From IMG/VR virus record IMGVR_UViG_3300047562_002142, positions 1-54,225 of that record: 54,225 nt of DNA; one strand, 5' to 3'. Numbering within the stretch: the stretch's first letter is position 1; each line of letters starts with the position of its first letter. Both the position numbers and the translations under genes were made by a program. The notes below the pieces were generated by a model. It did not search any database and was not told the origin of the DNA. It worked only from the letters and a program-made list of their open reading frames with translations. Below are positions 22,119 through 24,370 of this stretch, piece by piece. Source of the stretch: a virus.

Positions 22119-22198
22119 CCTCGTTTGGCGTAATCGGTATCCGCGGCGGTCTCAAACCGCTTCCGAAAGGAGTTCCAGTTCAAGTCTGGAAACGAGGA
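22119..22198 (+). tRNA. class II tRNA, probably Leu (CAA), with a short anticodon arm
   Basis: Acceptor CCTCGTT (22119-22125) pairs with AACGAGG (22191-22197), and 22198 is A73. The D-arm has GCG/CGC and a GG-containing loop. The T-arm is TCCAG-TTCAAGT-CTGGA (22174-22190). A variable arm stem TCC-GAAA-GGA makes it class II. The anticodon arm reads GCGGTCTCAAACCGC (22146-22160), which gives a 5-bp stem with a 5-nt loop, or a 4-bp stem with a 7-nt loop. CAA (Leu) is expected for class II, but a strict 7-nt loop would read TCA with C at position 33. CCA is not encoded. The identity needs a tRNA-model check. Confidence 0.75.
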
Positions 22199-22201
22199 CT
22201 T

Positions 22202-22233
22202 GACAATCATAAGGTTTATGTCTTATGATTGTC
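22202..22233 (+). terminator. 12-bp perfect hairpin between the two tRNA genes
   Basis: GACAATCATAAG (22202-22213) pairs exactly with CTTATGATTGTC (22222-22233), with an 8-nt loop. It lies 4 nt after one tRNA and 6 nt before the next. The T run after it is weak, so it may be a processing signal rather than a terminator. Confidence 0.55.
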
Positions 22234-22238
22234 TTATT

Positions 22239-22529
22239 GCTCGCATAGCCCAGCGGAAGAGGCAAACGACTTTAACAATTTGAGCACCATAGTAGGAAAC
22301 TCTATGTGTGAATCCACTTAAATTCGGGGAAACCTAAGTTCTTATGAATAAGGCAATCCCGAGCGAAGCAAGAGAAATCTTGAACGTGTAGAGGCTTAAC
22401 AGGTGGTTCCTAAGTCCTAATGGATATGGAAAAGAGAAAGTCCAGACCACAAACAATCTTATGATTGGTAGGGAAATCTATAGTGGTAAGAAAATCGTTC
22501 AAGGGTCGGTTCGAATCCGACTGCGAGTA
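22239..22529 (+). tRNA. tRNA with UAA anticodon split by a group I intron; class I body
   Basis: Exon 1 is 22239-22272 (34 nt) and exon 2 is 22491-22529 (39 nt), giving a 73-nt tRNA. The acceptor GCTCGCA pairs with TGCGAGT (one G-T). The D-arm is GCC/GGC, the anticodon stem AACGA/TCGTT, the variable loop CAAGG (5 nt) and the T-arm GTCGG-TTCGAAT-CCGAC, with A73. The spliced loop is CTTAAAA, so the anticodon is UAA (Leu codon UUA). The intron interrupts it after U34, exactly where cyanobacterial tRNA-Leu(UAA) is interrupted. A five-nt variable loop is not normal for bacterial Leu tRNA, which is class II, so charging is uncertain. CCA is not encoded. Confidence 0.85.
22273..22490 (+). ncRNA. group I intron (subgroup IC3-like), 218 nt, trnL type
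   Basis: The intron begins after a U that can form the U-G pair of P1 (CTT of exon 1 with GAG at 22282-22284) and ends with G 22490. Core elements resemble those remembered from the Anabaena/chloroplast trnL intron: a P2 hairpin CATAG...CTATG, CGGGGAAACCTAA and AAGGCAATCCCGAGC (P4-P5), a CAAGA-GAAA-TCTTG hairpin with a GNRA loop (P6), TAGAGGCTTAACAGG, and AAGAGAAAGTCCAGACC with its 5' partner for P7. No ORF is inside. It is probably self-splicing in vitro, although this is untested. Confidence 0.88.
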
Positions 22530-22590
22530 TAATTTAGCAAACTTATTGTATGATTAGATGTTCTTAGTCACACAAGTCAAAAGTATATCC

Positions 22591-22624: not shown

Positions 22625-22894
22625 ATGAAGTACAGAATTGATGCCCGATATGTATGGTACAATAAAGGAACAATGATTGTTCTGATGTACTTTTTGAATC
22701 AGGTTCCATTCACTTTTGATGATTTACCAGACGAATCTTTATTTGATTTGGAACTAATTGAATTGGCAGATAAAGAAAGACGCTTTGAGCCTGAGGATTT
22801 ATACCAATCCTCTTATTATTTAATTTTAGAAGAATGCCACCCACTTTTATATGAAGTTGAGTTGGAAAACCCAGAAATGTTGCCTGTAGATTAA
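22625..22894 (+). CDS. small acidic protein of unknown function
   Basis: This 89-aa protein, MKYRIDARYVWYNKGTMIVL..., has the C-terminal 60 residues very acidic (DDLPDESLFDLELIELADKE, LEECHPLLYEVELENPEM). I recognise no family. It could act as a nucleic-acid mimic or a small regulator, but nothing shows this. It is the first of four short ORFs between the intron-bearing tRNA and the endonuclease. Confidence 0.6.
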   Translation: MKYRIDARYVWYNKGTMIVLMYFLNQVPFTFDDLPDESLFDLELIELADKERRFEPEDLYQSSYYLILEECHPLLYEVELENPEMLPVD

Positions 22895-23392: not shown

Positions 23393-24370
23393 ATGAATCA
23401 TTTAAAAATTTATTGTAACCTTATAAGAAAAGCAGAAAAAAGAGGTTATACTAAAAAGAAAGCAAAAGAATTAAATTTATATGTGGAAGCGCATCATGTG
23501 TTTCCTGTTAGCATCTTTGGGAAAAATAAAAGAATAGTACATCTAACAGCAAGAGAACATTACATTGCCCATGTTTTATTAGAAAGAATTTGCATTAATA
23601 GGTATGGAAGAAATCATAGAAATACCAAAAAGATGACAAATGCTCATGTCATAATGGGAGGAAGGGGAAAGTATCGAAATTCTCATCTATACGAAAATAC
23701 TAAAAAACGATATAGCGAAGATAGAACTGGAGTTCCGATGAAAGAATGTTCAAAGCAAAAATTAAGAGAAAAGAATTTAGGGAGAAAACATCCCCCAGAG
23801 TTGGTAGAACAAATAGCACAAAAAATTAGAGGACAAAAAAGAACACCAGAACAAAGATCTAGAATGTCAAGGGCACAAAAAGGCATATCTAAAAGCACAT
23901 TAAAAGTAAAAAATGAAGATTTTAGAAATAAATTTATAGAAATAGTGAATAGTTCATTAACAAAAACAGAAATTATTAAAAAATTAGGGATGAAACCAAC
24001 AAGTAAGAGTAGTTTTGTTCTAATAGACAAGTGGGCAAAATATTTAAATCTTGATATGAGTCATCTAATAGGGAACGCAGTAAATATAGGAAGAAAGCGC
24101 AGTGAAGAATCAAAACGAAAACAGGGGATGAAAATACGAGGAAGAAAACATACACAAGAACATAACAAAAAAATAAAATTATCCAATTGCAAATATGTAT
24201 ATACTTTTATTTCTCCAGAAGGAATTGTCACAGAAACTGTGTTTTGTGAAGATTTTTGTGCTAGAAATAATTTAAATTCCTGCAAAATTAGAGAGGTCTC
24301 TAGGGGAGTTAGATTACACCATAAAGGATGGAAAGTGACTAGAAGACCAAGAATAGATGAAGATAAATAA
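23393..24370 (+). CDS. free-standing HNH homing endonuclease with NUMOD modules
   Basis: This 325-aa protein has an HNH site around residues 33-60: EAHHVFPVSIFGKNKRIVHL, then TAREHYIAHVLL (H34-H35, N45 and H56/H60 are candidates). Two lysine-rich NUMOD3-like DNA-binding stretches follow (GRKHPPELVEQI to about 165, and RKRSEESKRKQGMK to about 262), and a C-terminal segment ending RLHHKGWKVTRR is like the repeats of intron-encoded nucleases. Such enzymes cut specific DNA to spread their own gene or a neighbouring intron. It lies 863 nt after an intron-bearing tRNA and just before a giant fibre gene. The length and motifs look intact. Its cleavage site is unknown. Confidence 0.88.
   Translation: MNHLKIYCNLIRKAEKRGYTKKKAKELNLYVEAHHVFPVSIFGKNKRIVHLTAREHYIAHVLLERICINRYGRNHRNTKKMTNAHVIMGGRGKYRNSHLYENTKKRYSEDRTGVPMKECSKQKLREKNLGRKHPPELVEQIAQKIRGQKRTPEQRSRMSRAQKGISKSTLKVKNEDFRNKFIEIVNSSLTKTEIIKKLGMKPTSKSSFVLIDKWAKYLNLDMSHLIGNAVNIGRKRSEESKRKQGMKIRGRKHTQEHNKKIKLSNCKYVYTFISPEGIVTETVFCEDFCARNNLNSCKIREVSRGVRLHHKGWKVTRRPRIDEDK
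24362..24369 (+). promoter_or_regulatory. late promoter (giant fibre gene)
   Basis: GATAAATA lies 29 nt before the start at 24399 and overlaps the endonuclease stop codon. Confidence 0.5.

Follow-up and report, generated by a model that had tools for sequence, protein, structure and literature searches.

Group I introns of T-even phages and of cyanophage psbA genes are self-splicing and have homing endonucleases inside them or nearby (PMC3984707, PMC6083498), and a 2014 review placed all phage introns then known within protein genes, despite the many tRNA genes that phages carry (PMC3984707). A 2019 paper, in the portion cited here, presented introns in the tRNAs of Lak phages as new (PMC6784885). 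The cyanobacterial and plastid trnL intron (Paquin 1997, as relayed in passages of PMC5733544 and PMC3984707) is a small tRNA group I ribozyme that interrupts the UAA anticodon between U34 and A35. Cyanobacterial tRNA-fMet introns (Bonocora and Shub 2001, as cited in a passage of PMC3984707) also lie in the anticodon loop, and they have the AGTCCAGACCACAAAC core motif and the GGTAAG 3' end in common with the phage introns described below. Our search of the open-licence PMC literature gave no account of a group I intron in the tRNA-Leu of a phage.

The window, a stretch of 54,225 nt that makes up IMG/VR record IMGVR_UViG_3300047562_002142, encodes a gp32 protein 72% identical to that of Synechococcus phage S-SM2, along with gp53, tail-tube cap, baseplate, and tail fibre proteins, a gene content that marks the contig as a fragment of a T4-like cyanophage. 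We confirm, on the basis of covariance-model and covariation evidence, that positions 22239 to 22529 represent a tRNA(UAA) gene interrupted by a group I intron that is predicted to splice. Taken as a whole, we consider it highly probable that this is a self-splicing, IC3-like intron belonging to a lineage carried by phages, in which occupancy of the U34/A35 site of tRNA-Leu(UAA) is gained and lost. UUA is the commonest leucine codon of the phage (34.6% of Leu codons), so a functional tRNA with this anticodon would benefit it. Stop-codon recoding was ruled out, as stop use is normal (TAA 22, TGA 8, TAG 3).

Structure of the split tRNA gene and its ribozyme

The main features of the locus are as follows.

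22200 to 22229, plus strand: promoter-like TTGACA-18-TATGAT immediately 5' of the split tRNA (11 of 12 consensus matches, by pattern only)
22239 to 22272, plus strand: 5' exon of tRNA(UAA), with acceptor strand, D arm, 5' anticodon strand, and C32-U33-U34 (ARAGORN, intron mode)
22273 to 22490, plus strand: group I intron of 218 nt, apparently IC3-like, ORF-free (RF00028, 53.5 bits; covariation in 47 relatives)
22491 to 22529, plus strand: 3' exon of tRNA(UAA), with A35-A38, anticodon 3' strand, 5-nt variable loop, T arm, acceptor strand, and discriminator A
23393 to 24370, plus strand: free-standing homing-endonuclease-like ORF of 325 aa (phrog_655 homing endonuclease, E=5.7e-24; NUMOD3)

The two tRNA halves and the insertion between them had been placed at these coordinates in the first-pass annotation, and they are right to the base; when run in intron mode, ARAGORN places a tRNA-Leu(taa) with a 218-nt intron at 22238-22530. 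The exon join CTT|AAAA is unambiguous, with no room for sliding (22272 is T vs G at 22490, and 22273 is T vs A at 22491), and puts the insertion between U34 and A35 of a UAA tRNA, the site used in cyanobacterial and plastid trnL, as the annotation had stated. The predicted spliced tRNA is 73 nt long, with a 7-bp acceptor stem containing one G-U pair, a 5-bp anticodon stem (AACGA/TCGTT), a 7-nt anticodon loop bearing UAA, and discriminator A; CCA is not encoded. Its 5' exon can be aligned to the intronless tRNA-Leu(taa) of isolate S-SRM01 (L001 1520-1592). The class II body with a long variable arm is the norm for bacterial tRNA-Leu, whereas this tRNA, with its 5-nt variable loop, is class I. 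Charging of such a class I-bodied tRNA(UAA) by LeuRS is uncertain.

The Intron_gpI comparison proposed earlier as a check gave a match of 22263-22464 to the full Rfam model RF00028 (1-253) at 53.5 bits, above the gathering cut-off of 50 (E=1.1e-12 for the 801 bases searched, roughly 1e-10 when scaled to the whole window). A full-window Rfam scan at the gathering threshold and a genome-level search did not pick up the intron, most likely because of speed filters, and ARAGORN without introns did not call the split tRNA gene in the window. Default scans thus overlook genes of this kind, which helps explain why their annotation is missing. The fold of the 291-nt precursor has a z of -2.8 relative to shuffles.

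Just upstream, the promoter-like site overlaps a 14-bp terminator-like hairpin between two tRNAs (22200-22233). ARAGORN called the first of these, at 22119-22199, as tRNA-SeC(tca), which we rejected, as the homologue in phage contig L185 is a tRNA-Leu(CAA) with two extra loop bases; the anticodon loop reads CTCAAAAAC vs CTCAAAC in L185, reflecting either a real change or a homopolymer error.

We drew a P1-P10 model of the intron by hand, with these elements.

22270 to 22284, plus strand: P1, exon CUU 22270-22272 with guide GAG 22282-22284; pairs identical in 47 of 47 introns
22279 to 22493, plus strand: P10, UUU 22279-22281 with 3' exon AAA 22491-22493; 91.5% of cells paired
22285 to 22310, plus strand: P2, with L2 GAAA tetraloop at 22296-22299; double changes in 9 of 10 pairs, 93.6% paired
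22314 to 22406, plus strand: P3, 22314-22319 with 22401-22406; 6 of 6 pairs covary, 100% paired
22324 to 22387, plus strand: P4, P5, P6, and P6a, with P4 at 22324-22328/22358-22362
22333 to 22353, plus strand: P5, with 11-nt-receptor-like CCUAAG..UAAGG, one base off
22363 to 22365 and 22385 to 22387, plus strand: P6, GCG with CGU
22393 to 22442, plus strand: P7, GGCUU 22393-22397 with AAGUC 22438-22442
22407 to 22431, plus strand: P8, with perfect 11-nt GAAA-tetraloop receptor CCUAAG..UAUGG; 3 of 4 pairs covary
22446 to 22487, plus strand: P9, P9.1, and P9.2, with P9 ACCAC 22446-22450 pairing GUGGU 22483-22487 and a P9.2 GAAA loop at 22473-22476

When counted on 47 related phage introns, leaving aside P5b, P8b, and P9.1, which are misaligned between sequences, 97.6% of cells are standard pairs and 36 of 59 pairs contain double changes. 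There are 492 double-change cells vs 135 in shuffles, a control that leaves shared ancestry in place, and the covariation score is 0.480, as compared with 0.145 after shuffling and no more than 0.089 after sliding; the slide control is biased towards the drawn structure, for which the sequence of the window served in part as template. The helices P1, P2, P4-P6, and P7, first recognized as sequence blocks, are all part of the model, which contains a conserved P3-P9 group I core with a P7 pseudoknot. The pair at the 5' splice site, U22272.G22282, occurs in all 47 introns, as does G-C at the predicted guanosine-binding pair G22393-C22442, and the omega-G at the intron 3' end (G22490) is invariant. 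P7 is 100% paired and its remaining pairs covary, as in the close relative L055 (GAGCA:UGCUC). At the third P6 pair, where most relatives have C-G, a compensated G-C is present in 8 sequences, the window being one of them, and P9 (ACYAC:GURGU) has a double change in 9 of 47, with every P9 and P9.2 cell paired. P10 has zero double changes and so draws no support from covariation. As read from the sequence and helices, the L2 GAAA loop faces the perfect receptor in P8 and the L9 GAAA loop faces the near-perfect one in P5; with its simple P5 and small size in a tRNA gene, the intron would be classed as IC3-like.

These data bear on whether the insertion is instead a group I intron that has decayed and no longer splices, within a tRNA pseudogene. 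The Rfam score is barely above the cut-off, there is a G-U within P7, the P5 receptor is one base off, and the neighbouring tRNA at 22119-22199 has a shrunken anticodon loop. Every drawn helix nevertheless pairs in the window, with compensating changes as in P6 (GCG:CGU); the exon stems are intact, the core shows the conservation expected of a catalytic one, and close relatives have the same structure, so that decay appears quite unlikely. An assembly chimera or chance resemblance can be given practically no weight, as the same arrangement occurs on the separate contigs L055, L185, and L322 and E is about 1e-12.

For a functional self-splicing intron, the precursor would probably be transcribed from the promoter-like site at 22200-22229 and adopt the P1-P10 fold of the ribozyme. 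The first attack, after U22272, would come from guanosine bound to the G22393-C22442 pair, the freed U34 would attack after the omega-G at 22490, and the exons would be ligated into a 73-nt tRNA with anticodon UAA.

Patchy presence of the intron at the cyanophage locus

The adjacent ORF at 22625-22894 (phrog_4134) retrieved 80 IMG/VR loci, to which S-SRM01 and the window were added. The tRNA-Leu(UAA) gene is intronless in 65 syntenic loci and contains the intron at the identical site in 14, including the window, and so has the precise intronless alleles in close relatives that are expected of a mobile intron. On the phrog_4134 tree, the intron switches between present and absent about 8 times. 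The isolate S-SRM01 has the same short tRNA with an exact empty site, and its published gene list includes tRNA Leu TAA (PMC8557907). In most relatives a tRNA-Thr(UGU) follows the phrog_4134 ORF (L006-L085, about 3272); it is absent from the window from 22895 onward.

Endonuclease genes occur at several positions relative to this intron. ORFs of 144-285 aa, HNH-like where read, occur within 18 phage introns of greater length (about 650-950 nt), and the one tested against Pfam, from L115, matches HNH_3. Free-standing HNH genes follow tRNA-Leu, ahead of the next ORF, at 8 cyanophage loci that lack the intron and at 4 that have it; 1 of the 8 and 2 of the 4 are of another, smaller HNH type, and the rest belong to the intron-encoded family. 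Examples of the latter family directly 3' of tRNA-Leu(UAA) are given here.

L043 249 to 710: free-standing HNH gene
L048 2500 to 2961: free-standing HNH gene
L029 2525 to 2974: free-standing HNH gene
L066 2502 to 2978: free-standing HNH gene
L084 2497 to 2973: free-standing HNH gene

This series, with a free HNH gene beside an empty tRNA, then beside a split tRNA, and finally borne by the intron, agrees with the prediction of endonuclease-first models of intron mobility. Because intronless, endonuclease-adjacent, and split alleles are found at one cyanophage locus, with split alleles containing an endonuclease in other phages, a route from free endonuclease to intron capture becomes testable. 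HNH endonucleases, in longer relatives or beside the tRNA, probably drive or once drove the spread of the intron by cutting intronless alleles.

The 218-nt intron of the window contains no ORF of endonuclease size, and the homing-endonuclease-like gene at 23393-24370, about 0.9 kb downstream of the split tRNA, is distant from the tRNA-associated HNHs, both of which count against the reading preferred here. The encoded protein has just one 55-aa domain in common with the HNH beside the L029 tRNA-Leu (34.5%, E=3.5e-6), so that any role for it in the life of the intron is a guess. Homing at the level of the anticodon, raised in the first-pass annotation, therefore remains plausible for the lineage, given patchy presence, precise empty sites, and HNH genes in related loci, but finds no endonuclease within the window intron.

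The intron may also have spread mainly without homing, as a passenger on entire tRNA cassettes swapped from phage to phage. The closest introns, in L185 and L322, sit with a neighbouring Leu(CAA) tRNA at another locus, near RNR genes in L185. Short class I bodies are found in 29 intronless and 2 split tRNAs (UAA) among the 78 at the locus, and these alternate with class II bodies over near-identical flanks, with 20 changes on the tree. Exchange of whole cassettes takes place as well, and part of the spread would have taken this path. As the main path it is a minority possibility in our assessment: the intron occupies one exact site in long- and short-bodied tRNAs alike, and HNH genes lie inside or beside many of the related loci. 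Short-bodied Leu(CAA) and Leu(UAG) tRNAs are also present (L186, L163).

Kinship with cyanobacterial trnL introns

The kinship of the intron was examined in two maximum likelihood trees of 103 and 105 introns, with plastid introns in neither and with weak deep branching. In both trees, the typical trnL introns of cyanobacteria group as a single clade (100/100) at the end of a branch about 1 change per site long, and the window lies outside it. The window intron clusters with those of phages L185 and L055 and with trnL introns from MAGs of gut Bacilli, at 99/84 in the second, final tree. It is 89% identical to that of L185, vs 67% for the best match among cyanobacterial trnL introns. P9 is ACYAC:GTRGT in phage introns vs ATTCTC:GAGAAT in cyanobacterial trnL introns. 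The phage-like form of P9 also occurs in a rarer cyanobacterial trnL type and in cyanobacterial fMet introns, whose kinship is judged from motif comparison only, as they are not in the second tree. A single phage-only clade was considered and set aside, as the tree does not unite the phage introns (AU p=0.06).

Exchange with the host trnL had been suggested earlier, and recent capture of the intron from a cyanobacterial tRNA-Leu(UAA) gene would account for the shared site and anticodon in a phage that infects cyanobacteria. Two cyanobacteria, Phormidium L231 and G191 L307, have a related second type of trnL intron, and placement of the window and typical cyanobacterial introns on one side of a branch is not rejected by an AU test (p=0.30). 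The position of the window outside the 100/100 clade and the distinct P9 make host capture unlikely for this copy, as do the higher identity to a phage intron and exons that form a class I body unlike the host trnL; we consider it a very improbable origin.

Occurrence in other genomes and relation to described introns

A search pattern consisting of P7-P9 and the tRNA-Leu 3' exon found at least 120 phage contigs in IMG/VR with the same intron/exon junction in tRNA-Leu(UAA), and 27 contigs, mostly Bacilli MAGs, in 84,980 prokaryote genomes. The view that intron-bearing tRNA genes are rare in phages is thus wrong for IMG/VR, although no tRNA-Leu(UAA) intron was found in the cultured cyanophage records searched. 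Deposited phages with tRNA-Leu introns include Agrobacterium phage Atu_ph07 and the huge phages LR756501 and LR756511, and Microcoleus phage My-WqHQDG has an intron in tRNA-Arg. The tRNA-Leu cases are listed here.

L005 738 to 1099, L002 944 to 1234, and L317 794 to 1580: unannotated split tRNA-Leu(UAA) genes in Atu_ph07 and the two huge phages

In Atu_ph07 a hypothetical protein has been called across the split gene. Phage-type trnL introns also occur in Bacilli, Pelagibacter, Chloroflexota, and other MAG contigs (L206-L232), several with HNH ORFs. Matches in Pelagibacter phage HTVC120P and in crAss-like phages were rejected as tRNA introns, being group I-like cores near protein genes (capsid, DnaB); in HTVC120P, a related core lies immediately upstream of the capsid CDS (L004 1001-1165).

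Group I introns in phage tRNA-Leu(UAA) are thus common in metagenomic data and are missed by annotation at default settings, and this large phage family of split genes seems to be unreported. Phages become a candidate vehicle for the horizontal transfer of tRNA introns that is known to occur between bacteria. Our judgment is evenly balanced on the broader proposal that phages hold their own large and actively mobile tRNA-Leu(UAA) intron lineage, spread by HNH endonucleases at every stage, which may carry tRNA introns between bacteria and which in cyanophages is found even in a short-armed tRNA-Leu.

Among ribozymes outside phages, the window intron appears to share the architecture of the Azoarcus tRNA-Ile(CAU) IC3 ribozyme, with L2-P8 and L9-P5 contacts between GAAA loops and 11-nt receptors. 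That ribozyme, about 205 nt long with a similar P7 of type GACUA:UAGUC, differs in its tRNA and site, its location on a bacterial chromosome, and its simpler P9. Cyanobacterial tRNA-fMet introns are inserted one base earlier, at CT|CAT, and cyanobacterial trnL introns, despite their identical site, form a separate clade, have another P9, interrupt class II exons, and reside in a cellular host. Lak megaphages likewise have intron-bearing tRNA genes; in the portion of the report cited here, the isotypes named are Tyr and Thr, and the introns are called enigmatic with no group I class given (PMC6784885). The introns of T-even phages and of cyanophage psbA differ in that the genes they interrupt are protein-coding (PMC3984707, PMC6083498).
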